40,337 nucleotides of DNA, taken from NCBI GenBank assembly GCA_003553525.1, contig PWEO01000044.1, positions 1 through 40,337 on the forward strand. The letters run 5' to 3'. The DNA is from Clostridiaceae bacterium (lineage in GTDB: Bacteria; Bacillota; Clostridia; Peptostreptococcales; T1SED10-28). Both the position numbers and the translations under genes were made by a program. How positions within the stretch are numbered: the first letter of the stretch is position 1; every line of letters starts with the position of its first letter. The notes under the pieces were generated by a model. It made no database searches. It saw only the letters and a program-made list of their open reading frames with translations, and was not told where the DNA came from. This document shows, piece by piece, positions 9,360 to 37,823 of the stretch.

Positions 9360-9468
9360 GTATTTTCGGTTGTTATTGATGTAGCCAGCGCTATTTTATC
9401 TGTGTCATTTGGATAAGAATCGGGTATAAATGAAATTATCTTAACATGTATAAAAAGGAGGAATGCCT

Positions 9469-10272
9469 TTGAATCCATATATCGAATCTTTTATTCGAAA
9501 AACTCACTTTCACCATCATCGTTTATTTAAAGGACGAAAAAGCAAGATAATGACCTATCACAAATGTATCAAAAATTTTATCGTTTATCGTGTCACGGGA
9601 TTTGCCCGGGGGAAAATCAATCTGGGCACCTTGGATATTCTGGAGCTGCAAGGAAGACTGCAGGGAAAGGAGGAAGCGGTTAATCGAAGGATTATTGATA
9701 AGGAAATCAGTACGATTAATCAGCGAAATGAGTTTCGAAGTTTCTTTTTCTTTCTTCAAAAGGAATTTCCGGAATCTTATCAGCACATCCCCTTTATTAA
9801 AAGTGAGCGTCCGGATTTTCTGCTTCGATACAAAAATAAAGTAAGCGGGATAGAAGTAACGGAAGCTATCGAAGCCGGAGATGCCCGGCTTCGAGGGAAG
9901 GTCTATAAAAGTGATTTAAGAGGAAGAAAATCCCGGGAAATTGAGCGGTATGTGGATCAAAACCCCACAGTCCCCCTGGAGAAGGCAGGATCCTCCTTAG
10001 AAAAACTGATCCTTAAGCGAATTAAGGACAAAAAGGAGAAGTTCGGAGAATTTCAATCCGTGGATCGGGAAATTCTGATCATTATTGCAAACCATCATGA
10101 ATTCCAAAATCCCGGAGATATTGAAAAAACAAGAAAAGTACTGGAAGAGAAGGGTTTTCTGGAAAAAGCCCCCTTCTCTTTGGTGGTAATGAATCTTATT
10201 CATGGCGGCTATGCACATTTTCGATGGGTAAAGGGCGGCGTCATCTTGGAGAAAAGTGACGGAGAAAAATAA
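9469..10272 (+). CDS. Unknown protein with PD-(D/E)XK nuclease-like motif
   Basis: 267 residues from TTG 9469. An ATG at 9463 is in frame but only one base after AGGAGG (9456-9461), whereas the TTG is seven bases away. Homology to a named family was not recognised. The middle holds RPDFLLRYKNKVSGIEVTEA, which has the strand-turn-strand look of the PD-(D/E)XK nuclease core, with Thr where the last Lys usually stands. It is followed by a Lys-rich helix (LEKLILKRIKDKKEKFGEF) and a hydrophobic strand (REILIIIA). The N-terminal 100 residues are basic. It stands alone between the pyr operon and the ATP-grasp gene. The nuclease idea is an inference. Confidence 0.6.
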   Translation: MNPYIESFIRKTHFHHHRLFKGRKSKIMTYHKCIKNFIVYRVTGFARGKINLGTLDILELQGRLQGKEEAVNRRIIDKEISTINQRNEFRSFFFFLQKEFPESYQHIPFIKSERPDFLLRYKNKVSGIEVTEAIEAGDARLRGKVYKSDLRGRKSREIERYVDQNPTVPLEKAGSSLEKLILKRIKDKKEKFGEFQSVDREILIIIANHHEFQNPGDIEKTRKVLEEKGFLEKAPFSLVVMNLIHGGYAHFRWVKGGVILEKSDGEK

Positions 10273-10326: not shown

Positions 10327-10391
10327 TAGATAGCGAAAAATTGTTGCAATATTTTTAAAACTATCATAAAAAAATGTAGAGGAAGATGTAT

Positions 10392-12536
10392 ATGAAAATT
10401 GCTATTGTATATAATCGTGAGAGCCAAGCGGTAATCAATCTTTTTGGAATTCCCAATAAAGAAAAATACGGACTTAATACCATTTCCATGGTGGAGACCG
10501 CATTAGTTGAACACGGACATCAAGTGGAAACCTTTGAAGGGGATAAAAACATTATTCGGAAACTGGAAGAGTTTATGCCTCGCGTGGTTTCAGGAGAAAG
10601 ACCGGGACTGGTATTTAATTTAAGCTACGGAATTCAGGGAAAAGGTCGATATATGCATATTCCGGGAATTCTGGAGATGCTGGGGATTCCCTATGTAGGT
10701 TCGAATCCTGAAACCCATGCCATTGCCCTGGATAAGGTCATTACAAAAATGATTCTTTTGCAGCGGGGAATCCCTACACCGAAATTTGCAGTGCTGGAAA
10801 CTCCAAAGGATGAGCTTCGGGAAAAATTAACCTATCCTTTAATAGTAAAACCAAAAAGTGAAGCGGTATCCTTCGGCCTGAAAATTGTTCATAATCCTGA
10901 AGAATTAAAAGCAGGAGTGGAAAATATCTATAATGAGTTCAAAGCCCCTACCCTAGTGGAAGAGTATATTGAAGGACGAGAGGTGAATGTGGGTCTTTTG
11001 GGCAATGATGAAGTGGAAGCTATGCCGGCGGTGGAACTGATCTTCGGTGAAGGGGAAAAAATATTTACCTTCGAAGACAAAACCCATCAAAGCGGACGCA
11101 GTGTGGGGCGAGAATGTCCTGCAAACTTAACTCCGGAGTTGGAAGAAAAGGTAAAAACCTTAGCCATACGAACTTTTAAAGCCTTGGACTGTTATGACAG
11201 CGCCCGGGTGGATTTTAGAATTGATGAACAGGGGAATCCCTATGTGCTGGAAGTAAATTCCATGGCTAGTCTTGCGCCGACGGCTTCCTACGTATATGCG
11301 GCGGAAAAAATGGGACTGCCCTATAATAAACTGGTGCAGCGATTAATCGAAGTGGCTTCTCAGCGGTACTTCGGGTCTATTTTAGAAGGCCCGGGAGATG
11401 GGGTTCAGGACTATGAAAATTCTGCATTTTCTTATATTACACAAAATCGTGACAGTATGGAGAGTGAACTTCGTTCCTGGACCAATATGTACACCGCCAC
11501 CGACGATCCCGTAAGCAAGCAGGCTTTTATCCGGAAGCTGGATTATCGACTTAGAAAACTGAAGCTGAAAAAGAGCACTCACTACACCGATGGAAAGTCC
11601 TCCTGGTTTTGGACAGGGAAAAAAGGATTTCAAGAGGGTACCGTATTTGTGATTCCCGCAGATATTCCGGGGAACCGGGGCGCCTACCCCATACCCTTTA
11701 GGAAGGAACCGGAAAACCTATATGGAGAGGGGATTGCCTCCAGTCGAGCAGGTCTCATATCTGTATTAAAAGCCTTGGATGCCTTAAAACATCTGGGCAG
11801 AATAGATGATGCCAATTTTGGAGTATTTGTCTATGGAGATGAAGGACTGGGTATGCGTTACAGTTCGGAAATTTTGAAAAAAATAGGGAAAAGAGCAAAA
11901 AATATCGTGGTAATGCATCCCGGATACAATGACAATAAAGTGGTGAATCAGCGAAGGGGAACCATTAAGCTTAAAGTGGTCATTGAAGGAAGTTCCTTAC
12001 GAATCGGCAGCCAGAGTAGCACCTCCAATGCTTTAGACTTTTTGTTGGATAAGTCCGTAGATATTAAAAAAATCGATAAGGAAAATAAATACCTAACCGT
12101 GGCGATCCAGGATATTCAGTCCAATCGATACAGTATGCTTATTCCCCATCGGGTCAGTGCCAATATGTTTATTACTTATATTGATGAGGAACGGGCCAAA
12201 AAAGTGGAAACCCAGGTACGAAAGCTTTTTCAAACGAAGAAAAAAGGCATCAAAACCTATATCGAGAAATTGGAAGAGCGGCCCCCAATGATAAAAAGCC
12301 CGGATAGCGAAAGATTGATTGCAGAACTACAGGAAATCAGTGATAAGTGGAAAATTCCCTTTGATGTGGAATCCACTCTACTTCCATCTGCTGCCGGGGT
12401 AGTAAGTAAGGAGTGTGCTGTAGTTTGCGGGATGGCCCCAAGTTCGAAAAATCTGTATACACCGGAAGAATCTATAAGCCGAACAGAACTTGTACAAAAA
12501 ACATTGCTGATCAGTCAGTTTTTACTGAAAGAATAA
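10392..12536 (+). CDS. ATP-grasp (D-Ala-D-Ala ligase-like) protein fused to a degenerate M20-type peptidase domain
   Basis: 714 residues from ATG 10392; the ATG at 10386 is too close to the AGAGG site. Residues 1 to about 320 form an ATP-grasp ligase like D-alanine-D-alanine ligase: YPLIVKPKSEAVSFG, VEEYIEGREVNVG, and the Mg-binding DFRID and VLEVN motifs. Residues about 380-714 resemble M20 zinc peptidases in layout, including the inserted dimerisation domain (NQRRGTIKLKVVIEG). But the metal and catalytic positions are changed: P422-A-D where HxD is expected, S450/S451 in place of the bridging Asp, D483-E-G in place of DEE, and Y689 (NLYTPEE) where the last His would be. The ligase half looks active and the peptidase half looks dead. 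The substrate is unknown. Confidence 0.8.
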   Translation: MKIAIVYNRESQAVINLFGIPNKEKYGLNTISMVETALVEHGHQVETFEGDKNIIRKLEEFMPRVVSGERPGLVFNLSYGIQGKGRYMHIPGILEMLGIPYVGSNPETHAIALDKVITKMILLQRGIPTPKFAVLETPKDELREKLTYPLIVKPKSEAVSFGLKIVHNPEELKAGVENIYNEFKAPTLVEEYIEGREVNVGLLGNDEVEAMPAVELIFGEGEKIFTFEDKTHQSGRSVGRECPANLTPELEEKVKTLAIRTFKALDCYDSARVDFRIDEQGNPYVLEVNSMASLAPTASYVYAAEKMGLPYNKLVQRLIEVASQRYFGSILEGPGDGVQDYENSAFSYITQNRDSMESELRSWTNMYTATDDPVSKQAFIRKLDYRLRKLKLKKSTHYTDGKSSWFWTGKKGFQEGTVFVIPADIPGNRGAYPIPFRKEPENLYGEGIASSRAGLISVLKALDALKHLGRIDDANFGVFVYGDEGLGMRYSSEILKKIGKRAKNIVVMHPGYNDNKVVNQRRGTIKLKVVIEGSSLRIGSQSSTSNALDFLLDKSVDIKKIDKENKYLTVAIQDIQSNRYSMLIPHRVSANMFITYIDEERAKKVETQVRKLFQTKKKGIKTYIEKLEERPPMIKSPDSERLIAELQEISDKWKIPFDVESTLLPSAAGVVSKECAVVCGMAPSSKNLYTPEESISRTELVQKTLLISQFLLKE

Positions 12537-12661: not shown

Positions 12662-14269
12662 ATGAAGACAAAAGTTGTTCCGGTTTTTCGAAGCAAGAAA
12701 GGAATGGTATCTTCCGCTTCAAGACAGGCAACGGAAGTAGGTGCAGAAATTTTGGCCAAGGGCGGCAATGCTTTTGATGCCGCCGTGGCGGTGTCTTACT
12801 GCCTTGGAGTTACAGAGCCTCAAGCATCAGGAATCGGCGGACAATCCATGGCAGTGATATATCTTGCCAAAGAGAAGAAATATTTTGCTCTGGATGGCTC
12901 CTCTATGGCACCCTACCATTTTCAGCCGAAGGATATGCCGAAAAAGCCCCTGAAATTAGGCTTGAAGGCCTCAACCCTTCCATCTACTCCGGCCTTTTAC
13001 GGTTATCTAGTGGATAATTACGGAACCATGTCCTTTAAAGAATTAGTGGAACCTGCAATTAAAATAGCCACCGAGGGATTTTCCGTAACCCCTTTGATAC
13101 ATTCATTAATTGATCGAAGCAAAGAGGAATTAAAAAATGATCCCCAGGCAAAAAAGAATTTTCTCAAAGAGGATAAATCCTTAAAAGTCGGAGATGTTCT
13201 TACCCAACCGGAACTTGCGGGAATGATGAAGCGAATGGGAGAAAAGGGTTGGAGGGATTTCTACACAGGTGAAATCGGGAAAGAAATCATTGCGGATATG
13301 AGAGCTAGGGACGGATTGCTCACGGCGGAAGATTTAAGTCAAATCCCCATACCCATCGAGCGACCGGTATTGGAAGGGAAATACCGGAAATATGGAATTG
13401 TGACCTTTCCTCCTCCGGGAGCCGGTCGTGTGTTAATGCAGATTTTGAATATTCTTGAAAACTTTACGGAAGAGGATATCGATTTGGACAACCCTTACGG
13501 TAATTTAATTTTGGCTTTAGCCTTTCAATATACCCTCCGGGATCGGAAACGGATGCCGCAAAATCCGGATATTTATTTTCAACAAGCCACAAGAAAAATG
13601 ACCAACAAGAAATATAGTCGGGAAGTCACTGAAAATATTCGTAGAATTATTGAGAAATACTCAGAGAATATCAGTCATCTTCCTCCGGAAACTTCAGGAG
13701 AGACTACCCACTTTTCCGTTGCGGACAGCGAAGGAAATATTATAGCGGTAACGCAATCCATTGAACTGGTTTTCGGCTCGAAGCGAACCGCCCATGGGTT
13801 AGGGTTCTTCTATAATAACTATATGAGTGCTTTTGAATATAAGGACCGTACCCATCCCTATTATCTTTTGCCGGGAAACAAGCCTTGGAGCAGTGTGGCA
13901 CCGACGATTATTACATCCAGGAAAAAGCCTGTACTGGTCCTTGGAAGCCCGGGAAGTGAGCGAATTTCCACGGCTCTCAGTCAAGTGATTCTTCGATATA
14001 TTGACGGAAAGCAGGATTTATCCACGGCTATAGAAAAACCGAGATTCCATACTTCGGATTTGAAGAAAATGCAGTTGGAGAAAAAGCGGTTTTCCAAGGA
14101 AATCGAAAATACCTTTGATGAAACCGGATTTGAAATCCGCCCTCGGGGGTCCTATAGCTTTTATCTCGGTTGTGTCCAGGGAATTGAAATGCCCCACAAA
14201 AAAAACGGATATCAATTTTACGGAGTGGCGGACCCGAGAAGAGACGGATCTGCCAAAGGGCCGGAGTAG
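12662..14269 (+). CDS. Gamma-glutamyltransferase-family Ntn hydrolase, no signal peptide
   Basis: 535 residues. Family members cut or transfer gamma-glutamyl groups after self-cleavage into two chains. It starts with KGMVSSASRQATEVGAEIL and GGNAFDAAVAVSYCLGVTEP, typical of the large chain. Self-cleavage should fall before T348 in GETTHFSVAD, giving chains of about 347 and 188 residues. LGSPGSERIS replaces the usual GSPGG loop. There is no N-terminal signal peptide, unlike secreted glutathione-degrading enzymes, so it should act in the cytoplasm. It sits between the ATP-grasp gene and an N-formylglutamate amidohydrolase, which suggests an internal gamma-glutamyl or peptide substrate. Confidence 0.88.
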   Translation: MKTKVVPVFRSKKGMVSSASRQATEVGAEILAKGGNAFDAAVAVSYCLGVTEPQASGIGGQSMAVIYLAKEKKYFALDGSSMAPYHFQPKDMPKKPLKLGLKASTLPSTPAFYGYLVDNYGTMSFKELVEPAIKIATEGFSVTPLIHSLIDRSKEELKNDPQAKKNFLKEDKSLKVGDVLTQPELAGMMKRMGEKGWRDFYTGEIGKEIIADMRARDGLLTAEDLSQIPIPIERPVLEGKYRKYGIVTFPPPGAGRVLMQILNILENFTEEDIDLDNPYGNLILALAFQYTLRDRKRMPQNPDIYFQQATRKMTNKKYSREVTENIRRIIEKYSENISHLPPETSGETTHFSVADSEGNIIAVTQSIELVFGSKRTAHGLGFFYNNYMSAFEYKDRTHPYYLLPGNKPWSSVAPTIITSRKKPVLVLGSPGSERISTALSQVILRYIDGKQDLSTAIEKPRFHTSDLKKMQLEKKRFSKEIENTFDETGFEIRPRGSYSFYLGCVQGIEMPHKKNGYQFYGVADPRRDGSAKGPE

Positions 14270-14362: not shown

Positions 14363-15151
14363 ATGAAAGATCAGAAATTGCCGGTTATCATATCCATACC
14401 CCATGGAGGAACCCAAGTGCCGAAGAAAGTGCAGGGGATTTTTCAACTGGGAGAGCAGGAGGTTTTACGGGACGGAGATACCTGGACCCGAGAAATTTTT
14501 GATTTTAAAGAGAAGGTATTGGAGTTGGTGGAAACCCAAGTGCCGCGAGTGGTCCTGGATTTAAATAGGGGAATCGATGATCTGCCGCCTGAAAATTTTG
14601 ACGGCGTAGTCAAGACTAAATCCGTATTTCTGAATCCCGTGTGGGAAGACCCCCAGGGTTTAGAAGAAGTATATCGAAACCATTTAATTGAAAAATACTA
14701 TAAACCTTATTACCAAAAGATTTCCGATGCCCTGAATAATCCTGCAATCAAACTGGGAGTAGACTGTCACAGCATGCTTCCGGAAAATCCTTTTGACAAA
14801 ACCGCAGAAAAAAGACCCATGTTTTGTATCAGCAATCGTGGGGGAAAAAGGGGCGAGCTTCTTAAGGAGCCCCTCAGTGCATCGACGGAATTGATTCTCT
14901 TTTTTAAAGAATCTCTGGAAAGAGAATTTGGAAAGGGAAGCGTTAAAATGAACGACCCCTTTACAGGAGGCTTCATTACCCGGTACTTCGGAATGAAAAA
15001 GGGTGTGCCTTGGATTCAATTGGAAGTAAACCGTAGTATGTATCTTCCTTCAAAAGGAGAAATCACTCCGAGTCCTGAAAAAAAACATCGGGATATTGTA
15101 CAGGAACTGAACCGAAAAATCTTGAAAGCAATTAAGGGCTTAACGCTATAA
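14363..15151 (+). CDS. N-formylglutamate amidohydrolase family protein
   Basis: 262 residues. The family hydrolyses N-formyl-glutamate to glutamate and formate and shares a fold with zinc carboxypeptidase-like enzymes. Visible motifs are IISIPHGG near the start, DGDTWTREIF, VVLDLNRG, GVDCHSMLP (metal and catalytic His), FTGGFITRYFG and the C-terminal IQLEVNRSMY. No histidine-utilisation genes are nearby, so the classical role in histidine breakdown is not supported. The pairing with a gamma-glutamyltransferase 93 bases upstream suggests work on a related acyl-glutamate. GGAGATGACGAGGG precedes the ATG. Confidence 0.88.
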   Translation: MKDQKLPVIISIPHGGTQVPKKVQGIFQLGEQEVLRDGDTWTREIFDFKEKVLELVETQVPRVVLDLNRGIDDLPPENFDGVVKTKSVFLNPVWEDPQGLEEVYRNHLIEKYYKPYYQKISDALNNPAIKLGVDCHSMLPENPFDKTAEKRPMFCISNRGGKRGELLKEPLSASTELILFFKESLEREFGKGSVKMNDPFTGGFITRYFGMKKGVPWIQLEVNRSMYLPSKGEITPSPEKKHRDIVQELNRKILKAIKGLTL

Positions 15152-15381: not shown

Positions 15382-15939
15382 ATGACGGAACGGGAATTAA
15401 TTAAAAAAGCTCAAGCGGGCCATAACCAGGCGTTAAATCAGCTGCTTTTGGACAATTATTCGATCCTGAAGGGCTATTTAATCAAACTTACCCTGCAGAA
15501 AGAGCTGGCGGAAGACCTTACCCAGGAAACCTTATTTAAAGCCGTTACAAAGATCCAGGACTATGAACCCCAAGGGAAGTTTAGTACCTGGTTAATTGTG
15601 ATCGGAAAAAATCTTTACTTCGATTATTTGCGCAAAAACAAAAGAACCGGAAGTTTTGAAGAGTATGAGTCGACTTCCGGCGGGAGCCTAGAAAAAAAGG
15701 GGCGGAGTTTGGAAGAGGGAGTTATGAATACCTTCGCCGTGGAAAAAATGAAAGAAAGTCTATCAAGGCTCAGTCGGGAAAAGCGCAGCGTATTTATTTT
15801 AAAGCATTATTACGGTTATTCCTATAAGGAAATTGCAGAAATTGAACAGTGTCCCGTAGGTACTGTACGTTCCCGGTTACATAACAGCATTGAGGAGATT
15901 CGACAAGCCATGGAAAAGGAGGGGTTGGATGGATTCTAA
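15382..15939 (+). CDS. ECF-type RNA polymerase sigma factor
   Basis: 185 residues. Region 2 (LAEDLTQETLFKAV, GKFSTWLIVIGKNLYFDYLRKNKR) and region 4 (LSREKRSVFILKHYYGYSYKEIAEIEQCPVGTVRSRLHN, with the helix-turn-helix) are both complete, without regions 1 and 3, as in extracytoplasmic-function sigma factors. The next gene overlaps it by 11 bases and encodes a zinc-finger anti-sigma factor. Its own promoter and that of the facing ABC operon share an ECF-like motif, so it probably controls both. The gene set resembles B. subtilis sigY-yxlCDEFG; direct orthology was not tested. Confidence 0.92.
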   Translation: MTERELIKKAQAGHNQALNQLLLDNYSILKGYLIKLTLQKELAEDLTQETLFKAVTKIQDYEPQGKFSTWLIVIGKNLYFDYLRKNKRTGSFEEYESTSGGSLEKKGRSLEEGVMNTFAVEKMKESLSRLSREKRSVFILKHYYGYSYKEIAEIEQCPVGTVRSRLHNSIEEIRQAMEKEGLDGF

Positions 15940-16384
15940 ATGTAGAGAAACCCAATATAAAATGTTGGACTGGTTTTACAATGAACAAGGAACAAAGAGT
16001 TGGGATTTTGATCATGCTCAACAATGCACGGAATGCCGGGGCTATTATGATAAACTGCTGAAACTAGAAGAAAATTTGCCAAGAGAACCTTTGGAATTTC
16101 AAGCATCCGATGCATTCGTTCGAGCCTTGGAGGACCAGATTCGAGAAGAGAGGATACGGTTCGAAGAAAAAAGGGGAAAAAGAAGTTTTTTAAAAGAACT
16201 GGGGGCTTTTCCCGCGGTGGCTTTTATCCTTCTGCTTGCCATGGGCAGCCTCTTTTACTTCGATGTGGGGCCCTCTTTTATGCAGGTACAGCTGATAGGA
16301 CTCTTAATGTTTCCATTGATTATTCCAATCCTGGGAGCCCTTGAAAAAAATCGACAGCAGGGGCGTGATTCTTATGGCTCATGA
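15929..16384 (+). CDS. Membrane-anchored zinc-finger anti-sigma factor
   Basis: 151 residues from ATG 15929, which has AAAGGAGG before it; the longer frame from 15890 has none. The cytoplasmic N-terminus carries H29-x3-C33-x2-C36 (HAQQCTEC), the ZAS motif of zinc-binding anti-sigma factors. Two hydrophobic segments (about 90-112 and 118-140) anchor it in the membrane. It overlaps the sigma gene by 11 bases and the following gene by 11, so the three are probably translated together. It should hold the sigma factor inactive until a signal, possibly thiol or envelope stress, arrives; the signal is inferred only from the ZAS motif. Confidence 0.8.
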   Translation: MDSKCRETQYKMLDWFYNEQGTKSWDFDHAQQCTECRGYYDKLLKLEENLPREPLEFQASDAFVRALEDQIREERIRFEEKRGKRSFLKELGAFPAVAFILLLAMGSLFYFDVGPSFMQVQLIGLLMFPLIIPILGALEKNRQQGRDSYGS

Positions 16385-27133: not shown

Positions 27134-30100
27134 ATGCCGCTGCGCTATTTAATGGGGAGAGCCCATAGTAATCTTCAAAAAACCTTATTTCAGGAAATCA
27201 GCCGTCGTCAGGAAGAAAATCCCGAAGGCCGTTTTTTTTTAATTGTACCGGAACAGTTCACTTTGCAAACGGAAAGAGCTTTAATTGAATCCCAGGAGCT
27301 TTTGGGAATTTTAAATGTGGAGGTGTTAAGTTTTACCCGATTAGGATATCGGGTATTTAATGAAGTGGGAGGCATCACCTCCGTGGTTATTGACGAGCTG
27401 GGGAAAAACATGATGATCAAAAAAATCCTTCAGGAGCATCGTGAAAAACTGTTGATGTATGAGAAAATTTCCGATCAATTAGGATTTGCCAAGAAAATGG
27501 GAGAGATGATTACGGAACTGAAAAGACATCGGATTACCCCCATTGAGCTGCATCAAACCATCAGCCAACTGGAAGATGAAGGCCAGGAAGACAGTCCGAT
27601 TAATTATAAACTATGGGATATCAGCATGATTTATGAAAAATTGAATCAGAGGTTGGAAGATAATTATTTAGACAGCGAAGATCGAATGAATCAAATGATC
27701 GCCTATCTTCCCGATGCATCCTTTATCAAGGATACCGAGATTTGGGTTCATGGATTTTATCAGTATACCCCTCAAATGGAGTCCTTAATAGAAACTCTGG
27801 AAAAAGAGGGGAAAAATGTGACTCTTACCTTTGTGATGGAACAAAATCCCCGGGAGGAAGAAAAAGAGCTCTTCTCCGTTCCGGAAAAGGCTCTGTTGAA
27901 GTTTCGAGCCATGGCAAAAGAAAGCCAAATAAAAGAGACCTTTATTTATTCAAAGGAAGGAAACATCGATAGTATCCCCAAGGCATTGCAACATATTGAA
28001 AGAGAGTTTTATGCCTACCCTTATGAAAAATTCCCGGAAAATCCTGAGGGGATTGAACTCTTTGCCGGAGCAAATCCCTATGGGGAGGTGGAGGAAATGG
28101 CCCGAAGGATCATTTCCTTAGTACGGGAGAAGAACTATCGATTCCGGGATATCGCCATAGTATCGGGCAATATTCAGGGATATACCATGCTTATTCGACG
28201 AGCTTTTGAGGAGTACGGCATTCCTTTTTTCCTAGATGAAAAAAGAAGTTCCGTGGATCGTCCCGTTATGGAATGGATCCTTTCGGCATTAAAAACCGTG
28301 GAAACCAACTACCGTTATGATCAGGTTTTTCGGTTTTTGAAAACCGGTTTTCACAATTTAACCGTGGATGAGGTGGAGAGCCTGGAAAACCATGTGTTAG
28401 CCTATGGAATTCGGGGAAAATCCTGGAAGGAGGATTTCTGTTACGGAAAAGAGGAGACGTTGGATGAGTTGAATGAGATTCGAAAAAAATTCATTGCTCC
28501 CTTTCTAATTTTAGAAAAACCCTTAAAAGGAAAAAAGAACGTTGAGGAAAAAACCAAGTCCTTATTTAAATTTATGGATAAACAGGGACTTAAGGAAAAA
28601 CTGGATGCTTGGCTGCAGAAGCTAAAGCAACAGGGACATTTTGAAAGTCACAGTGAAAACACCCAGGTTTGGAACCAAACCATGGAAATTTTCGATCAAT
28701 TGGTGGAGATTTTAGGGAATCAGAAACTGTCGCTAAAAGAGTATATCAAGGTCTTAGAATCCGGGTTTGAAGGTGCGGAGGTAGGGGTGATACCCTCTAC
28801 CATTGACCAGGTGTTAGTGGGAAATCTGGAGCGTTCCCGAGCTCAGGATATTAAGGCAATGTTTTTAATCGGTGGAAATGACGGAGTAATTCCCTACATT
28901 GAAGAAAAAGAAGAACTGTTCTTGGATCATGAGCGGGTGTTGTTAAAGAAAAAAGGGCTGGAAATTGAAGAGGACGGAGAAACTAAGCTGTTTGAGCAAA
29001 ACTACGGGATTTACTTGGCATTAACGAAACCTGAAAGTTATCTTTGGTTTAGTTATTCGGTTTCCGACAATGAAGGAAAAGCCCTTCGTCCTTCAATTTT
29101 GGTGGAACGGTTTTTAAGCCTGTTTCCGAAGCTGGAAATTCGAGACGAGCGGTTTGATCGGGAAGAGGAGCTTGAAAAAATCTCCACAGCCTCGGGAACC
29201 TTTAACGGGCTTACGGATAAAATGCGGGAATATGTTGAGGGCAAAGATATTGACCCTTTATGGTGGGACGTGTACAGTTTTTACGTAGAGAAGGATGAGT
29301 GGCAACAACGAAGAAGAACCATGGTCAAAGGTCTTTTTTATGAGAATCAGCGGGAAAGCATTGATTCGAGCTTGGCTAAGAAACTCTATGAAACTCCCGT
29401 AAGAGCCAGCGCATCAAGATTTGAAAAATTTCATAACTGCCCCTTTGCTCATTTTGTCAGCTATGGCCTTCGTCCCAAGGAGCGAAAGAAGTATGAAGTG
29501 CAAACCGTGGATATGGGGGATCTTTTCCATCAGTCCATCGATTCCTTTGCCAAACGCTCCGAGGAACAAAAACTGAACTGGAAAACCATGGATCCCCGAC
29601 AAGGGGAAGCCTTAGTGGAGGCGGTGATCGATGAACTGGCGCCGAGCTTCGGCAACGGCGTGCTGACCAGCAGTTACCGCTATCAATATCTAACGCAGCG
29701 GCTGAAACGGATCAGTAAAAAAACCGTCAAAACCTTAATAGAACAGGTACAGCAAGGGGAGTTTGAACCCTATAAGCATGAATTCGCCTTCGGGGGCGGA
29801 ATGGTTGAAAAACTGCCCTTTGTCATTGAACTGTCGGGAGGGGAAAAAATTCATCTGGAAGGACGGATTGACCGTTTGGACCGTCTGGTAGAGGAAGACG
29901 GCAGTTATATAAAAGTGATGGACTATAAGTCCGGATATGCGGAGTTTGATTTAAACGCCCTGTACCATGGGCTGAAAATCCAACTGCTGCTGTATTTGGA
30001 TGCGGCCCTGTCCTATGAGAGCCTGGGTCAGGGAGAAACTCTTCGTCCCGCCGGGGTGTTTTACTTTAAGATCGAGGATCCCATGGTAAAGGATCCCGGT

Positions 30101-30628
30101 TCCGAGGATCCTACGGAAGATCAGCGGGAAGCCTATGAAAAGGCTGTGGAAAAAGAAATCAATAAGCAGTTGAAAATGAAAGGGTTGGCTTTGAAGGATG
30201 TGGAGGTTCTCAAAAAAATGGATCAAAACCTGGGGGCCGGTTCCGAGATTTTGCCCGTGGGCATAAAAAAGGACGGGGATTTTAAAAAGACATCCTCGGT
30301 AGCCTCGGAAGAAGAATTTCAAGGAATGATCCAATACGTCAGGAATCTCCTGAAAGAATCGGGAGAGGATATTCTTCAGGGAAAAATTACCGTTTCCCCC
30401 TGCAAGGTGGGAGACCGTACTCCTTGTGATTACTGCGAATACGGAGGTATTTGCCAATTTGATCTGCAACTGAAGGATAATCAATTTCGCTATTTGAAGG
30501 ATCGAAAACCCGAAGAAGTGTTAGGAAAAATCCTGGAAAAGTCCGGAGTTCAATCTCAAAGTCAATCTGAAACAGAATCCGAAAAGAACTCGAAAACCTA
30601 CGGGAAGGAGGGTGGTAAAAATGCCTAA
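27134..30628 (+). CDS. addB: AddAB helicase-nuclease, subunit AddB
   Basis: 1164 residues, the normal length. Together with AddA it resects double-strand breaks and recognises Chi. RFFLIVPEQFTLQTERAL near the N-terminus is diagnostic. The nuclease domain has HLEGRIDRLDRL and VMDYKSGYAEF. The four cluster cysteines are in NCPFAHF and, at the C-terminus, within CKVGDRTPCDYCEYGGIC. The N-terminal Walker A loop, GRSGSGKS-like in many relatives, reads GRAHSNLQKT here and looks degenerate. The ATG follows AAAGGAGG. The C-terminal end is a Gln/Ser/Glu-rich tail. It overlaps addA by eight bases. Confidence 0.95.
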   Translation: MPLRYLMGRAHSNLQKTLFQEISRRQEENPEGRFFLIVPEQFTLQTERALIESQELLGILNVEVLSFTRLGYRVFNEVGGITSVVIDELGKNMMIKKILQEHREKLLMYEKISDQLGFAKKMGEMITELKRHRITPIELHQTISQLEDEGQEDSPINYKLWDISMIYEKLNQRLEDNYLDSEDRMNQMIAYLPDASFIKDTEIWVHGFYQYTPQMESLIETLEKEGKNVTLTFVMEQNPREEEKELFSVPEKALLKFRAMAKESQIKETFIYSKEGNIDSIPKALQHIEREFYAYPYEKFPENPEGIELFAGANPYGEVEEMARRIISLVREKNYRFRDIAIVSGNIQGYTMLIRRAFEEYGIPFFLDEKRSSVDRPVMEWILSALKTVETNYRYDQVFRFLKTGFHNLTVDEVESLENHVLAYGIRGKSWKEDFCYGKEETLDELNEIRKKFIAPFLILEKPLKGKKNVEEKTKSLFKFMDKQGLKEKLDAWLQKLKQQGHFESHSENTQVWNQTMEIFDQLVEILGNQKLSLKEYIKVLESGFEGAEVGVIPSTIDQVLVGNLERSRAQDIKAMFLIGGNDGVIPYIEEKEELFLDHERVLLKKKGLEIEEDGETKLFEQNYGIYLALTKPESYLWFSYSVSDNEGKALRPSILVERFLSLFPKLEIRDERFDREEELEKISTASGTFNGLTDKMREYVEGKDIDPLWWDVYSFYVEKDEWQQRRRTMVKGLFYENQRESIDSSLAKKLYETPVRASASRFEKFHNCPFAHFVSYGLRPKERKKYEVQTVDMGDLFHQSIDSFAKRSEEQKLNWKTMDPRQGEALVEAVIDELAPSFGNGVLTSSYRYQYLTQRLKRISKKTVKTLIEQVQQGEFEPYKHEFAFGGGMVEKLPFVIELSGGEKIHLEGRIDRLDRLVEEDGSYIKVMDYKSGYAEFDLNALYHGLKIQLLLYLDAALSYESLGQGETLRPAGVFYFKIEDPMVKDPGSEDPTEDQREAYEKAVEKEINKQLKMKGLALKDVEVLKKMDQNLGAGSEILPVGIKKDGDFKKTSSVASEEEFQGMIQYVRNLLKESGEDILQGKITVSPCKVGDRTPCDYCEYGGICQFDLQLKDNQFRYLKDRKPEEVLGKILEKSGVQSQSQSETESEKNSKTYGKEGGKNA

Positions 30629-33600
30629 ATGGACACCGGAGCAGCAACATGCCATTGAATCCAGAGGGGAGAACCTACTGCTGTCCGCAGCTGCGGGCTC
30701 AGGGAAAACCGCGGTATTGGTAGAACGGATTATTCAAATGATTACCAAGGATGAACTGGATATTGATCGACTGCTGATTGTAACCTTTACAAAGGCCGCA
30801 GCGGGAGAGATGCGGGAGCGAATCGGGAATGCGGTGGTGAAGGCCTTAGAGGAAAAAACGGGAAACTCCGATCATCTGCGACGACAGATGACCCTGTTAA
30901 ACCGGGCGAAGATCACGACTCTTCATGCCTTTTGCATCGATGTGATCCAAAAGAATTTTCATTTGATAGATTTAGATCCCGCCTTTCGCATCGGGGATCA
31001 GACAGAAAACAATCTTTTAAGTCGGGAAGCTCTGGAAAACGTCTTCGAGGAGCACTATGAAAACCAAAATCCGATCTTCCATCAGCTGGTGGAAAGCTTC
31101 GGAGGCAGCAAAGAGGATGACCCCTTAAAAGAAATGGTGCTGAAGTGTTACCGCTTTACCCAGAGTCAGCCGGACCCTATGGAGTGGCTGGAAAAACAGA
31201 TGGAGAACTTTCACGTGGAGAAAGAAGCGGACTTGGAAAATCATCCCTGGACATTAGAACTTAAAAAAGGGATTAACCGAAGGCTAAAAGGGGCAAAAGA
31301 TCTGTTTCAAAGAGCCCTGGAGACAGCCCAAAGTCCCGGAGGACCGGAACCTTATGCCTCGGCCATAGAGGAAGACCTTAAAAATATCGGAGAACTTCAA
31401 TCCTTGGGAGAAAAGGATTTGAATGCGTTTTATCAGGAACTAAAGACGTTGAAGCATCCCCGTTTGAAGGCGGTAAAGAAAGAGAGCTGTGATGAAGCCT
31501 TAAAAGAGGAAGCGAAATCCCTTCGGGACGACGGAAAAGATTTAATCGATAAAATCAAAAAAGAACAGCTGCAACAAAGTCCTGCCCGATATTTTAAAGA
31601 TTTACAGAGAATTGCTCCGCTGATGGATTATTTTTATGATCTGGTCAAAGCCTATCATCAGGAGTACGGTGATAAAAAACGGGAACAGGGAGTAATGGAC
31701 TTTAACGATTTGGAGCATTTCGCCCTGGAAATATTAAAGGATTCGAAGGCGCAAAAGATGTACCGGGAACAATTCGAACACATTTTCATCGATGAGTATC
31801 AGGACAGCAATATTGTGCAGGAGACTTTGATACAGCGGATTTGCAGAGAAAACAATCTTTTTATGGTGGGAGATGTAAAACAGAGTATTTACCGTTTCCG
31901 ACTGGCGGATCCCACGCTGTTTCTGGAGAAGTACGAAACCTTTGATAAAAAAGCTGGGGAAGAAAGCGGACCCCTGCTGAATCGAAGAATCGATCTATCG
32001 AAAAATTTCCGGAGCCGCAGTTCCGTCATTGACGGAGTGAATTTTCTATTTCGTCATTTGATGTCCAGGGATCTCGGAGAAATTCATTACGATGAAAGCG
32101 CCTATTTATACAGGGGAAGGGATCATCAGCCCATTGAAGATTCTGATTTGGAACTGCATTTGATTGAAAAAAAGGAAGAGGATCTTCAAGGGGTGGAAGA
32201 GGAACTGCAAGAACTGAAGGCCATGGAATTTGAAGCCAGGGTTGTGGTTAAACGAATCAAGGAACTGACCGGGGATATGGAAATTTACGATGAAGAACTG
32301 GAAGCCTACCGAAAGGTTACCTACCGGGATATGGTCATTCTTCTTCGCTCTACAAAAAGCTCCACGAATATATTTCAGGAGGAGCTGGCCCGGGAAGGGA
32401 TTCCCGCCTATGCGGATTCCGACAGCGGCTACTTTGAAGCGCTGGAAGTTCAAATGTTTCTGGATCTTCTGCGGGTAGTGGATAATAAAGCCCAGGACAT
32501 TCCCTTAATCAGTGTTATGCGCTCCCCTATGGGAGGATTTACCACGGAGGAACTGATTAATATTCGCCTGGAAAATAAACAGGGTTCCTATTTTGAAGCC
32601 TTGAAAAATGCGGCTTATCACAGGGAGTACCCCCTGGGAGAAAAAGCCGGAAAATTCCTGGCAAATTTACGGAAATGGAAGGAAGATTCCAGGCTATATA
32701 AAATTGATGAATTTATTTGGAAACTACTTAGAGAGACGGGATATTATTATTTTCTCGGAGCCATGCCCGGGGGAAAACAACGCCAGGCAAATCTTCGGAT
32801 ACTGCTGGACCGGGCCACGGAATTTCAACAAACATCGATTAAAGGGCTGTTTCAATTTATCGAATTTATGGAGAAAATAAAACAGGGCAGCGATGACTTC
32901 GGGGCGGCGAAAATCCTCGGAGAGAAGGAAAACGTGGTCCGGCTGATGAGTATCCACAAAAGCAAAGGGCTGGAGTTTCCTGTAGTGTTTTTAGCCGGAT
33001 TGGGCAAACAGTTCAACAAAATGGATGTCAGGAGCAATATGCTGATGCATAAGGATCTGGGTATGGGACCGAAGTTTGTGGACCTTAAAACCCGGACCTA
33101 TCGGGACACTTTAGGGAAAGTGGCCATGAAAGAAGTGATTGAAGGGGAAAATCTTTCGGAGGAAATGCGGATTTTGTATGTGGCCCTAACCCGAGCTGAG
33201 GATAAGGTAGTGCTTACCGCCTCGGTTCCAGGGATAGAGAAACAGCTGGAGAAATGGGGAAAGTCCAAGGGCAGTTATGCACTTCGGTCGGCTCAAAGCC
33301 CTATGGACTGGATCGGCCCCTTGCTGATCAGGCATCAAGGGGTTACTGCTTTTAGAGATATTCTGACCTATGAAACTCCCCGGGGGGAACTGATTAAGGA
33401 TGAAAGTCCCTGGCGATTGGATTTAGTAGACCGAAAAGGATTCTCCGAAGAAATTCGTGAGACCCGGGAAAAAAAGGATCAGGATCAGCAGAAATTTAAG
33501 GAACTGGAAAATCCCGGCGGGGAACCCCGCAGTCCATACCGCGACAATATTCATAAGAAGCTGGACTGGGTGTATCCCTATAAAAGCAGTGAGAATATTC

Positions 33601-34232
33601 CTTCAAAACTCACGGTTACAGACTTGAAATCCTTTAATCGGGATTCCATGGAACGTGTAAAATACCGGGCACCCAGTTTGAAAGAACGTCCCCGTTTCCT
33701 GGAGGAACGAAAAGCCTTTGAGGGAAAGGAATTAGGAACCATCCTGCACTTTTTTATGCAGCATTTGGATTTTCATAATACCAAAGATCTCTCGGCTCTA
33801 GAAAAGCAGAAGGATCGAATGGTTGCCCGGGGCCTTCTTCGGGAAGAGGAAGCAGAATCCTTAGAACTGGAAAAAGTAGAGCTTTTTCTCCAAAGTCTTC
33901 TGGGTCAACGTATGAAAGCTGCAGAAAAGATTCATCGGGAAGAACCCTTTAATATTTGGAAAAAGGCCGAGGACCTGTCTACGGAACTGGAGGGCTGTGA
34001 AGACAAAGTACTGATTCAAGGGATGATTGACTGCTACTTTGAAGAAGAGGGACAGTGGGTGCTGGTGGACTACAAAAGCGATTACCTGTGGGAGGGGAAC
34101 CGCAGGGAAAAACTTGAAACCTATAAACCTCAACTAACCCTTTACCGGGAAGCTCTGGAGTCCATTACCGGAAAAAAAGTAAAAGAAACGATCATTCATT
34201 TTTTCTATACGGGAGAATCTATCGAAATATAA
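30621..34232 (+). CDS. addA: AddAB helicase-nuclease, subunit AddA
   Basis: 1203 residues from ATG 30621, eight bases after AGGAGGG; a GTG at 30612 overlaps that site. A UvrD-type superfamily 1 helicase: Walker A AAAGSGKT (23-30), VTFTKAAAGEMRERI, Walker B FIDEYQDSN, VGDVKQSIYRFR, SIHKSKGLEFPVVFLAG and LYVALTRAEDKV are all intact. The C-terminal RecB-type nuclease carries GTILHFFMQHLD, IQGMIDCYF and VLVDYKSDYL with the metal-binding Asp and Lys. The gene is translated with addB. The complex works in the cytoplasm on broken DNA ends. Confidence 0.96.
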   Translation: MPKWTPEQQHAIESRGENLLLSAAAGSGKTAVLVERIIQMITKDELDIDRLLIVTFTKAAAGEMRERIGNAVVKALEEKTGNSDHLRRQMTLLNRAKITTLHAFCIDVIQKNFHLIDLDPAFRIGDQTENNLLSREALENVFEEHYENQNPIFHQLVESFGGSKEDDPLKEMVLKCYRFTQSQPDPMEWLEKQMENFHVEKEADLENHPWTLELKKGINRRLKGAKDLFQRALETAQSPGGPEPYASAIEEDLKNIGELQSLGEKDLNAFYQELKTLKHPRLKAVKKESCDEALKEEAKSLRDDGKDLIDKIKKEQLQQSPARYFKDLQRIAPLMDYFYDLVKAYHQEYGDKKREQGVMDFNDLEHFALEILKDSKAQKMYREQFEHIFIDEYQDSNIVQETLIQRICRENNLFMVGDVKQSIYRFRLADPTLFLEKYETFDKKAGEESGPLLNRRIDLSKNFRSRSSVIDGVNFLFRHLMSRDLGEIHYDESAYLYRGRDHQPIEDSDLELHLIEKKEEDLQGVEEELQELKAMEFEARVVVKRIKELTGDMEIYDEELEAYRKVTYRDMVILLRSTKSSTNIFQEELAREGIPAYADSDSGYFEALEVQMFLDLLRVVDNKAQDIPLISVMRSPMGGFTTEELINIRLENKQGSYFEALKNAAYHREYPLGEKAGKFLANLRKWKEDSRLYKIDEFIWKLLRETGYYYFLGAMPGGKQRQANLRILLDRATEFQQTSIKGLFQFIEFMEKIKQGSDDFGAAKILGEKENVVRLMSIHKSKGLEFPVVFLAGLGKQFNKMDVRSNMLMHKDLGMGPKFVDLKTRTYRDTLGKVAMKEVIEGENLSEEMRILYVALTRAEDKVVLTASVPGIEKQLEKWGKSKGSYALRSAQSPMDWIGPLLIRHQGVTAFRDILTYETPRGELIKDESPWRLDLVDRKGFSEEIRETREKKDQDQQKFKELENPGGEPRSPYRDNIHKKLDWVYPYKSSENIPSKLTVTDLKSFNRDSMERVKYRAPSLKERPRFLEERKAFEGKELGTILHFFMQHLDFHNTKDLSALEKQKDRMVARGLLREEEAESLELEKVELFLQSLLGQRMKAAEKIHREEPFNIWKKAEDLSTELEGCEDKVLIQGMIDCYFEEEGQWVLVDYKSDYLWEGNRREKLETYKPQLTLYREALESITGKKVKETIIHFFYTGESIEI

Positions 34233-34293
34233 CCTGCGAACCGGTAATTATAATTTGGATGATTAACCGGCAGATACAATTGGAGGGATAAGA

Positions 34294-35262
34294 ATGAAAG
34301 AGACAGGAATACCGATGCATCAGTTGGAAAAAGCCAGGGACCGTTTAATAGGCCGGGCAAAAATCACTCCCCTGCTTCGGGGGGAAACCCTGGATAAGTT
34401 GATAGGAGCCCAGGTTTATCTGAAACCGGAAAATCTGCAAGTAACAGGATCCTTTAAAATTCGCGGTGCCACCAATAAAATGCTCACTTTAAGCCGCGGG
34501 GCTCTTGAAAAAGGGGTCATTGCCGCATCATCAGGAAATCATGCCCTGGGCGTCAGTTACGCCGCGAAGGTTTTGAACACGAAAGCGGTAATTGTGATGC
34601 CCGTGGATGCTCCGAAAATAAAACAGGCCAAGGCCAAGGCCCTGGGAGCGCAAGTGATCCTTTGCGGGGCCACCTCCAAGGAACGTTACGATAAGGCGGA
34701 AGAGTTGATTGATGCTCATGGATATACGTTGATCCATTCCTATGCCGATGAAGACTTGATGGCAGGTCAGGGAACCGTGGGTTTGGAGATCGTAAAAGCT
34801 TTGCCTGAGGTGGATCTGGTTGTGGTACCCTTAGGAGGAGGGGGGTTGCTGTCCGGGGTGGTAAGTGCCCTGAAAGGAAAAAATACCGAAATCAAGGTGG
34901 TGGGAGTGGAAACCGAAGCGGTGCCCCGATATACTGCAAGTCTTAAAAATGGAAGGCCTACCACGGTGGAGATTAAGGACACCTTTGCCGACGGACTTAA
35001 GGTGGTAGAGCCGGGAAGACGGAATTTTGAAATCATCAGCGCCCTAGTGGACGAGGTGATAACCGTAGGAGAAGAGGATCTTCGTCGAGGAGCAAAGACC
35101 CTATATATGGAAAGCAAACTTGTGGTGGAGCCTTCTGCTGCGGTGGGTATCGCTGCGGCCTTGTCAGGAAAACTAACAATGAAAAATAAGGATAAGGTGT
35201 GTTTTCTTCTCAGCGGAGGAAATGTAGACGAAGAGAAAATGATCGAAATACTGAAAGGGTGA
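34294..35262 (+). CDS. Threonine dehydratase, catabolic type without ACT domain
   Basis: 322 residues. A fold-type II PLP enzyme deaminating threonine (and often serine) to 2-oxobutyrate and ammonia. The PLP lysine is K55 in TGSFKIRGAT; ASSGNHALGVSYAA and the phosphate loop VPLGGGGLLSG are intact. It ends at SGGNVD without the C-terminal regulatory domain of biosynthetic IlvA, so it resembles TdcB. The M19 dipeptidase gene follows after four bases, and a CoA-transferase pair comes next. This fits amino-acid fermentation. Confidence 0.88.
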   Translation: MKETGIPMHQLEKARDRLIGRAKITPLLRGETLDKLIGAQVYLKPENLQVTGSFKIRGATNKMLTLSRGALEKGVIAASSGNHALGVSYAAKVLNTKAVIVMPVDAPKIKQAKAKALGAQVILCGATSKERYDKAEELIDAHGYTLIHSYADEDLMAGQGTVGLEIVKALPEVDLVVVPLGGGGLLSGVVSALKGKNTEIKVVGVETEAVPRYTASLKNGRPTTVEIKDTFADGLKVVEPGRRNFEIISALVDEVITVGEEDLRRGAKTLYMESKLVVEPSAAVGIAAALSGKLTMKNKDKVCFLLSGGNVDEEKMIEILKG

Positions 35263-35266
35263 TGTT

Positions 35267-36220
35267 ATGAAAATTATTGACTTTCACTGTGATACAATGT
35301 TGAAAATCATGGAAAGCAATGAAAAAGCAGGATTAAAAGAAAACGACTTTCAGGTGGATATCGGGAAACTTCAACGGGGTCAAGCCCTGGCCCAGTTTTT
35401 TGCCCTGTTTTTTGAACTGGATGTTATGAGGGAGAAAAAGAAAAGTCCCTATGAACATACTCTTGAAATGCTTGGAAGCTTTGAAGAGGAACTGAAGAAA
35501 AACACAGAGGATATTGCCTTGGCTAAAGGATTTGAAGACCTTGCAAAAAATGAAAAAGCAAATAAAATCTCTGCTTTTTTAACCATTGAAGAGGGCGAAG
35601 CCTTGGAAGGCAGTCTTGATAAATTATCATTTTTTCACAAAAAAGGTGTTCGTTTGATCACTCTTACATGGAATCATGAAAATCAAATCGGCTTTCCAAA
35701 TATCCGATACAAAAGTCGGGAGCGGGGACTAAAGCTCTTCGGAAAGGAAGTTGTGGAAGCAATGAACCACTTAGGGATGTTGATTGATGTTTCCCATCTA
35801 TCCGACGGAGGTTTTTGGGATGTGGCGGAACTGTCTAAACAGCCCTTTATCGCGTCCCATTCCAATGCACGGAGTGTGAAACCCCATCCTCGGAACCTCT
35901 CCGATGAGATGCTAAAAGCTCTGGGTAACGGCGGCGGCGTTGCGGGATTGAACTTCGCCAATTATTTTTTAAGTGAGGATCCCATAAGCAAAATTAAACC
36001 GATGCTTAAGCACATGAGGCATATCATTAACGTAGGAGGAATAGAGGCTTTGGTTCTAGGCACAGACTTTGATGGCATCAGCAGTGAGCTGGAAATCGAA
36101 AATATCGGAGAAATTCAATCCTTGGTTACCGCCATGGAAAAGTCTGGCTTTTCATCGAAGGAAATTGAGCATATTACCCATAAAAACGGACTTCGTATCA
36201 TTAGGGAAGTTCTGGGTTAA
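35267..36220 (+). CDS. Membrane dipeptidase (peptidase family M19)
   Basis: 317 residues. A zinc dipeptidase of the renal dipeptidase family: DFHCDT holds the first His and Asp (H7, D9), AFLTIEEGEAL the bridging Glu, LIDVSHLSDGGFWDV and FIASHSNARSV the other metal histidines, and GTDFDGI the conserved Asp near the C-terminus. There is no signal peptide, so it is cytoplasmic. Four bases separate it from the threonine dehydratase stop, indicating one transcript. It probably frees amino acids from dipeptides for fermentation. Confidence 0.92.
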   Translation: MKIIDFHCDTMLKIMESNEKAGLKENDFQVDIGKLQRGQALAQFFALFFELDVMREKKKSPYEHTLEMLGSFEEELKKNTEDIALAKGFEDLAKNEKANKISAFLTIEEGEALEGSLDKLSFFHKKGVRLITLTWNHENQIGFPNIRYKSRERGLKLFGKEVVEAMNHLGMLIDVSHLSDGGFWDVAELSKQPFIASHSNARSVKPHPRNLSDEMLKALGNGGGVAGLNFANYFLSEDPISKIKPMLKHMRHIINVGGIEALVLGTDFDGISSELEIENIGEIQSLVTAMEKSGFSSKEIEHITHKNGLRIIREVLG

Positions 36221-36241
36221 GGTTTTTTCATATCCTGGCAG

Positions 36242-36270
36242 TTGTGAAAACCCCGGTCCTGTAATACAAT
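36242..36270 (+). promoter_or_regulatory. Sigma-A promoter of the CoA-transferase operon
   Basis: TTGTGA (36242-36247) and TACAAT (36265-36270) are 17 bases apart, 48 bases before the start of the A subunit. Confidence 0.55.
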
Positions 36271-36318
36271 AGAAGACAATGAAGGAAACTAATTTTATGA
36301 AACAAGGAGTGATGAAGG

Positions 36319-36972
36319 GTGGAAAAAATCATTGACATGCAAGAGGCAATTTCCTATGTTGAAGATGGTATGACCATTATGATCGGAGGATTTTTGGGAA
36401 ATGGAGCTCCGGATCAATTGATTGAAGGTCTTTTGAAAAAAGGGGTTAAGGATTTAACCCTGGTCTGTAACGACACCGGATTTCCCGATCGGGGAATCGG
36501 GAAACTTGTGGTGAATAAACAGGTGAAGAAAGTGATAACATCCCACATCGGAACCAATCCCCAGTCGGGAAAACAAATGCACAGCGGGGAGATGGATGTT
36601 CGTCTGGTTCCCCAGGGAACCCTGGCAGAGCAGATTCGATCTGCAGGAGCAGGCCTTGGAGGATTTTTAACCCCAACGGGAGTAGGTACTGTGGTGGAAG
36701 AAGGCAAAGAAGTTGTGGAAATTGACGGTAAGGACTATTTATTGGAGCTGCCGATTAAAGCGGATCTGGCCCTTATTCGGGGAAGCAAAGTGGACACTAA
36801 GGGAAACGTATGGTATCGCCACTCCACACGAAACTTTAACCCGGTTATGGCCATGGCGGCGGATCGGGTCATTGTGGAAGCGGAAGAGGTTGTGAAAGTG
36901 GGAGAAATCGATCCGAACAATGTGGCAACACCCCATATTTTTGTAGATCATATTGTAAGGGGGAGTAAATAA
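36319..36972 (+). CDS. 3-oxoacid (acetoacetate/butyrate-type) CoA-transferase subunit A
   Basis: 217 residues. The A subunit of a family I CoA-transferase, which moves CoA between acyl-CoA and short-chain acids. GMTIMIGGFLGNGAPDQLI at the N-terminus and SHIGTNPQSGKQMHSGE, GAGLGGFLTPTGVGT and ALIRGSKVDTKGN later are family marks. The start is GTG 36319 with AAGGAG nine bases upstream. The B-subunit ATG overlaps its stop. The exact acid pair (acetoacetate, butyrate or another) cannot be read from the sequence. Confidence 0.9.
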   Translation: MEKIIDMQEAISYVEDGMTIMIGGFLGNGAPDQLIEGLLKKGVKDLTLVCNDTGFPDRGIGKLVVNKQVKKVITSHIGTNPQSGKQMHSGEMDVRLVPQGTLAEQIRSAGAGLGGFLTPTGVGTVVEEGKEVVEIDGKDYLLELPIKADLALIRGSKVDTKGNVWYRHSTRNFNPVMAMAADRVIVEAEEVVKVGEIDPNNVATPHIFVDHIVRGSK

Positions 36973-37622: not shown

Positions 37623-37673
37623 GCAGTATAATAAGCAGGAAATCAAGTTCCTGTACTATAAAATCATTGGAAG

Positions 37674-37708
37674 CACTCCCGTAATTATCCTTACGGGGGT
37701 GTTTTTTT
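37674..37708 (+). terminator. Intrinsic terminator of the CoA-transferase operon
   Basis: CACTCCCGTAA (37674-37684) pairs with TTACGGGGGTG (37691-37701), allowing one T-G pair, with a 6-nt loop and seven Ts after it. The words CCTGTACT and AGTACAGG flank it and could extend the stem at long range. Confidence 0.9.
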
Positions 37709-37823
37709 GATTCAGTACAGGAGCACTAAAAATCAGATGAAGAAACAAAGATATTTATAAAAAGCTTTTAAAAAAGAAAAAAAGAGGTATAAATACATAA
37801 ACTAATAAAAAGGATGTGAAGGT

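Follow-up and report, generated by a model that had tools for sequence, protein, structure and literature searches.

A D-Ala ligase-like ATP-grasp protein fused to an M20-like domain that has lost its di-metal site

The fusion gene and its surroundings

The window, that is, the whole stretch of 40,337 nucleotides analyzed here (contig PWEO01000044.1 of a Clostridiaceae bacterium), carries an open reading frame at positions 10386-12536 of the forward strand, encoding 716 residues from its ATG. An alternative start at 10392 gives 714 residues and is probably the true one, because most homologues begin with MKIA. Residues are numbered here on the longer frame, so that Pro422, DEG 483-485 and Tyr689 of an earlier note on this DNA are our P424, D485-E486-G487 and Y691, its numbers being ours minus 2. 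The protein joins an ATP-grasp ligase domain to an M20-like domain, and genes for a γ-glutamyltransferase-like (GGT-like) protein and an FGase-like protein follow on the same strand (Table 1). A 269-aa open reading frame upstream (9463-10272) is conserved in the genus and had no Pfam match. At 15382-16384, on the cassette strand, a SigY-like ECF sigma factor (NCBIfam SigY, 196.9 vs 194) lies with a probable anti-sigma gene, and SigY-like and anti-sigma clusters (20-22) also follow the cassette within the genus and in a sister genus from the same family. The remaining genes inspected, at 27134-40247 (AddB nuclease, PLP enzyme, M19 dipeptidase, CoA-transferase subunit and LonB-like protease), are ordinary, and a promoter and terminator scan gave no more signals than were found in shuffles.

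Table 1. Features of the fusion gene and its two partner genes (positions in the window; residues on the 716-aa frame)
Feature	Position	Strand	Basis or remark
ATP-grasp (Ddl-like) ligase domain, aa 3-330	10392..11375	+	PF07478 and PDB Ddl match
M20-like domain, aa 343-716, complete fold, di-metal site lost	11412..12533	+	Pfam, CPG2 alignments, full-length model
Former HxD motif, now P424-A-D426	11655..11663	+	His ligand gone, Asp retained
Former bridging-Asp motif, now S452-S453-R454	11739..11747	+	56-row alignment
Former DEE motif, now D485-E486-G487	11838..11846	+	Catalytic Glu retained, ligand Glu gone
Former Glu ligand, now H511	11916..11918	+	Alignments
Invariant C681	12426..12428	+	56/56 in alignment
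Former last His ligand, now Y691	12456..12458	+	56-row alignment
GGT-like Ntn hydrolase	12662..14269	+	PF01019 4.6e-123; autoprocessing Thr348 retained, S80 at R114 position (E. coli numbering)
FGase-like (N-formylglutamate amidohydrolase family) hydrolase	14363..15151	+	PF05013 2.8e-41

Fold of the two halves

The ligase half matched the Pfam family Dala_Dala_lig_C with 8.6e-41 and was closest to D-Ala--D-Ala ligases (Ddl) in a PDB profile search (1.8e-43). The M20 half matched Peptidase_M20 (PF01546; 1.1e-5, 25.9 bits against a cut-off of 24.6) and also M20_dimer (PF07687; 1.3e-4), that is, the lid region is retained; it reached 8e-21, below the cut-off, with the NCBIfam glutamate carboxypeptidase model PRK06133 and 1.7e-17 with carboxypeptidase G2 in the profile search. 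A full-length AlphaFold2 model was built from 52 natural sequences (mean pLDDT 86.1, pTM 0.76) and superseded a model of the M20 domain only, which had a pLDDT of 74 and poor loops at the former metal site. The M20 half of the full-length model matched carboxypeptidase G2 with Z 38.1/37.9 over 365-370 residues and 19% identity (rmsd 4.7 over 365 residues for the Z 38.1 match), and the ligase half matched Pseudomonas aeruginosa DdlA with Z 32.8, rmsd 2.4 over 300 residues and 29% identity. These matches settled the fold question raised by the earlier note: the M20 layout that it had read in the C-terminal half was borne out, and a non-M20 fold was ruled out by the carboxypeptidase G2 match at Z 38.

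The ATP-grasp motifs that the note had recognized in the N-terminal half are indeed in place. Residues K117, K155, E192, K232, R274, D276, E289 and N291, which include the ATP/Mg residues, were invariant in 52 full-length members. Against the NCBIfam D-Ala ligase models, the fusion stayed below every cut-off shown (183.4 vs 243 at best, 168 vs 245.65). The same genome encodes a separate true Ddl (446.4 bits against a cut-off of 262), so the fusion is not the cell's D-Ala ligase, and the candidate explanation that it serves as the only Ddl was ruled out. One lineage carries an ATP-grasp protein of about 330 aa (L126:7994-8986) that is 56% identical to the ligase half and stands alone without the M20-like domain; the ligase may therefore not need that domain. 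Ddl-like ATP-grasp proteins with a single domain also form a sister set at about 35% identity (L120-L125 and G000:C152), and the two of them that were scored both fell below the Ddl cut-offs.

Loss of the di-metal site

To assign the former active site, we used the metal ligands that we take carboxypeptidase G2 to have, with the pairing of motifs coming from the alignments, in which its GIADD, DEE and EPT pair with GIASS, DEG and MHP of the fusion and its HMD stretch with IPAD. All five di-metal ligands were found to be replaced in the window protein (H>P424, D>S452, E>G487, E>H511 and H>Y691), and the lid His of carboxypeptidase G2 is Arg539. The earlier note had listed four of these losses, namely HxD His to Pro, bridging Asp to Ser, DEE to DEG and last His to Tyr, and each was confirmed. 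The fourth ligand, a Glu, is also gone and has become His511, since the alignments pair EPT with MHP; the note's statement that most zinc ligands were lost from a well-preserved fold thus extends to the complete set.

The search for other fusions revealed the same losses family-wide. A locus scan with two peptide patterns, which for that reason favours one clade (clade A), found 59 loci, and 55 of them together with the window were placed in a 56-row alignment; L085, L094, L097 and L100 were left out for interrupted or frameshifted frames. The bridging Asp is absent from every member, and all 56 have Gly for the second Glu of DEE. The HxD His position holds P in 45 members, S in 5, H in 4, A in 1 and Q in 1. 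At the H511 position Glu is absent from all 56 (Q 38, H 7, R 5, A 3, M 2, S 1), and at the last His position Y occurs in 41, F in 11, H in 2 and other residues in 2. On the other hand, D426, D485, E486, R454, C681 and R699 are invariant (56/56 each), that is, the HxD Asp and the general-base Glu remain intact. Among unfused M20 relatives from related genomes (16 fetched, 10 with a readable frame), HMD, the bridging D, EE and the final His were present, except that one of the 10 is without the first motif stretch only.

The HxD His survives in four members only (Desulfonema magnum, a Latescibacterota MAG and two unplaced MAGs). These make up the deepest branch of the clade, which suggests that the ligands were lost stepwise; four of the five are gone even in these deepest clade A members. 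In Anaerotalea alkaliphila (L085:8960-11122) the fusion gene has a single in-frame stop at the codon of the catalytic Glu, which could be either a null allele or a sequencing error.

Distribution and conservation of the family

The fusion is retained across several phyla. An alignment search with the ATP-grasp domain over 398 genomes of the phylum gave matches in 22: 12 are clade A (the window included; one on a truncated 425-aa frame), three are longer clade B proteins, one is the lone ATP-grasp protein mentioned above and six are single-domain relatives at 238-248 bits. Clade B is the same fusion, with frames of 725-742 aa, 413-424 bits and about 32% identity, and none of its three members has a full ligand set. 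The first ligand position is taken by H or N and the bridging position by Glu; DEE reads D-D-W or D-D-T, with Asp instead of the general-base Glu in all three; the next Glu is replaced by H or Q, and the last position has N or H. With a clade B protein as query, three of the 63 genomes of one class were matched, one of them with a broken copy (G653). The two clades split deeply, and that neither has the full metal site is hard to explain by chance.

Two fusion copies with a GGT gene between them are present in one genome, where the arrangement is whole (L081). The L034/L036 genome probably has the same arrangement, with the second copy seemingly split over two contigs. A plasmid search returned only 20 records, all of them weak M20 matches below 60% identity.

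In three same-genus pairs the dN/dS values were, for the M20-like domain, 0.030, 0.054 and 0.034 and, for the ATP-grasp domain, 0.027, 0.017 and 0.016; another three pairs were excluded because their dS was saturated. By these ratios the M20-like domain is under purifying selection. Its conservation is concentrated: six stretches at the former active-site motifs make up 88 of its 372 positions and contain 21 of the 34 positions conserved at 97% or more (p 6e-7) and 33 of the 72 conserved at 90% or more (p 3e-6), p-values that are indicative because the stretches were chosen from M20 motifs after the alignment was seen. This pattern argues for a function that would be carried out without the di-metal centre.

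GGT-like and FGase-like partners

Neighbours were counted at 56 of 60 loci, window included (L046 and L097 were not entered, and at L085 and L102 the fusion gene was not called). A GGT-like gene was present at 41, an FGase-like gene at 37, both at 33 and at least one at 45. Where each side had a flank of at least 2.5 kb (36 loci), the counts were 27, 23, 22 and 28, leaving eight with neither. Clade A partners never lie on the strand opposite to the fusion; the gene order varies, with GGT upstream in many Bacillota and downstream in the window. At one clade B locus (L127) both partners are nearby on the other strand. Nine genomes were checked as a whole: close GGT homologues occurred in three (G000, G209 and G513) and close FGase homologues in two (G000 and G513), two Alkaliphilus genomes had only distant homologues elsewhere in the genome, and G158, G528, G677 and G807 had no GGT or FGase homologue at the thresholds used. 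From the locus counts and the genome checks, the partners often accompany the fusion but are not obligatory.

The GGT-like protein of the window scored above the cut-off of TIGR00066 (389 vs 357.85), has a short N-terminus and showed no secretion signal by eye. After three short GGT rows and one short FGase row had been dropped, all 39 GGT-like proteins were found to keep the autoprocessing Thr and the TTH motif. In E. coli GGT, Arg114 and Asp433 presumably hold the α-carboxylate and the α-amino group of the γ-glutamyl moiety; here R114 is S in 39/39, and D433 is A in 38/39 and S in one. Two more GGT-family proteins are encoded in the same genome; the one on contig C224 has YREI where the Arg would lie, and the one on contig C15 does not. 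The FGase-like protein passed the cut-off of the Pfam FGase superfamily (142.5 vs 28.9) and fell short of that of NCBIfam HutG (80.1 bits vs 278.75). H14, D39, D66 and H136 are invariant in all 36 FGase-like proteins, and this partner is probably active.

Two pathway candidates were set aside. A link to lysine synthesis was dropped because dapB, dapA, a DAP aminotransferase gene and lysA lie upstream in one group only, the Syntrophomonadaceae (named at L081, with the same clusters in L083 and L089). For the synthesis of compatible-solute dipeptides, as of the NAGGN type, no acetyltransferase or amidotransferase recurred among the neighbours.

Habitat of the carriers

The 59 loci come from 57 genomes, of which 22 (24 loci) bear sample labels of Siberian soda-lake studies. 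PMC6146748 and PMC6704655 use such labels and give 871 and 1032 MAGs. On these figures the share of 39% compares with 2.2% expected if all 1,903 MAGs were species representatives among 84,980 (binomial 8e-22, which overstates the enrichment because the genomes are related). The named isolates number 20; 19 belong to alkaliphile genera or species and the remaining one is the marine Desulfonema magnum. We take Alkaliphilus, Evansella, Alkalicoccus, Salipaludibacillus, Alkalihalobacterium, Heliorestis, Litchfieldia alkalitelluris and Anaerotalea to be alkaliphilic or haloalkaliphilic. Soda-lake MAGs and alkaliphile genera dominate the family as sampled.

A proposed role for the M20-like domain

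The explanation that we favour, by a narrow balance of probability, is that the M20-like half is a metal-free ligand-binding module that serves an amino-acid ligase in an uncharacterized, probably glutamyl-related pathway. The half would derive from a carboxypeptidase-G2-like ancestor that became fused to the C-terminus of a Ddl-like ATP-grasp amino-acid or peptide ligase. To judge from its intact motifs, the ligase half would activate a carboxylate with ATP and join it to an amine, as Ddl does. The M20-like half would no longer hydrolyze by the di-metal mechanism; its remodelled pocket, in which the conserved arginines R454, R523, R539, R581 and R699 may replace the cation, would bind a substrate or product that bears a carboxylate and is probably glutamate-like, and would hand it over to, or gate, the ligase. 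The GGT-like and FGase-like hydrolases, where present, may process the same metabolite. A glutamyl compound is suggested because carboxypeptidase G2, GGT and FGase, the relatives of the three proteins, share a glutamate theme, and loss of the GGT residues that read both groups suggests that the free α-amino and α-carboxyl groups of the ligand may be blocked. The earlier note's suggestion of a domain that holds the ligase's amino acid or peptide is reasonable as a putative function. Several observations count against a binding module. The catalytic Glu and its Asp neighbour are both invariant in clade A, and a domain that only binds would not need them. Neither partner is found at eight of the 36 well-flanked loci, the two Alkaliphilus genomes have distant homologues only, and G158, G528 and G677 have none at the thresholds used. 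In addition, the lone ligase of one lineage does without the domain.

The first of these observations also bears on the non-enzymatic role that the earlier note had proposed. The part of it that stood is a function apart from the di-metal centre, in line with the conservation and the family-wide loss of the canonical site; the non-enzymatic part stays conjectural, given the invariant Glu/Asp pair and the new invariant residues R454, C681 and R699. Metal-free catalysis keeps some probability because the pair is invariant and these three residues lie in former catalytic motifs. The domain might then be an enzyme that works in tandem with the ligase to make or break an amide or acyl bond; in it E486 (with D485) may act as base, R454 or other arginines as electrophile and C681 as nucleophile. 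The six residues invariant in clade A and their clustering in the former active-site motifs would fit such an enzyme, but clade B has Asp for the Glu (DDW/DDT) and Glu-Asn-Lys or Glu-His-Lys for SSR, and to our knowledge no M20 member works without metal; we regard it as a tentative alternative, with perhaps one chance in a few.

It is less likely that the domain is only a scaffold, through which the protein would dimerize or dock its GGT-like and FGase-like partners. The lid domain dimerizes many M20 enzymes, the lid region is retained here and the partners are often encoded adjacent; however, the strongest conservation lies in the former active-site motifs rather than being spread over the lid, and the fusion is also present without partners. 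It is improbable that the domain is still a metallohydrolase whose ligands have moved, for example to H588, E448, E695, C681 or D426: conserved candidate residues are there and four deep members still have the HxD His, but the window protein has none of the five canonical ligands and four of them are missing even from those deep members. Decay of a former ligase-hydrolase fusion, with the domain as its relic, was rejected as a likely explanation. The lone ligase of one lineage, the interrupted isolate copy and the broken clade B copy would agree with decay, but dN/dS values of 0.03-0.05 largely refute it and the domain is retained across several phyla.

A wider proposal, put forward with considerable reserve, is that the fusion could be an enzyme with two sites, the former zinc peptidase now giving the ATP-grasp ligase a second site, active or substrate-channelling, that works without metal, and that the ligase-pseudopeptidase, the altered GGT and the FGase could form the core of an undescribed glutamyl pathway serving life at high pH and carbonate.

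The fusion combines two known kinds of protein, an ATP-grasp ligase and a pseudopeptidase. It offers a clean natural case of a metallopeptidase domain without its metal site, kept over several phyla and fused to a synthetic enzyme, and with such a case the purpose of a disarmed peptidase pocket can be put to the test. The cassette recurs and is concentrated in soda-lake and alkaliphile genomes, which points to an uncharacterized metabolite or repair pathway in these organisms. The family also carries a warning for annotation, as similarity would name the fusion a Ddl or an M20 peptidase and its neighbour a γ-glutamyltransferase, each of them without a defining feature. In a literature search of titles, where absence is weak evidence, no title described the fusion or the cassette; a survey of ATP-grasp amidoligase operons, reportedly made in 2009 by Iyer and colleagues, could list the fusion.

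Comparison with known systems

The ligase half resembles the Ddl family in fold and in its ATP/Mg residues, and its Ser301 is at the position that, we assume, reads the carboxylate of the second substrate in Ddl. It differs in having MASL in place of PGMT, an N-terminal motif, YNRESQAVINLFG, that is not that of Ddl, and an M20 domain attached at its C-terminus. Carboxypeptidase G2 and the M20 glutamate carboxypeptidases have the HxD Asp, the catalytic Glu and the whole-domain fold in common with the fusion, which differs from carboxypeptidase G2 in its five replaced ligands, the change of the lid His to Arg539 and the attached ligase. The GGT-like neighbour shares fold and autoprocessing Thr with the GGT family, whereas the Arg114 and Asp433 positions are replaced.

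In the LysW pathway, the ATP-grasp enzyme LysX and the M20 enzyme LysK act on the same glutamyl-linked compound. These are separate proteins with an active metal-dependent M20 enzyme and the LysW carrier, none of which was seen here, and LysK appeared among the structure matches of the fusion as a fold match only. Transferrin receptor and nicastrin are dead peptidases of the M28 family used as binding domains; as in the fusion, the peptidase fold has been retained after loss of metal ligands, but they belong to another family and have no ligase attached.
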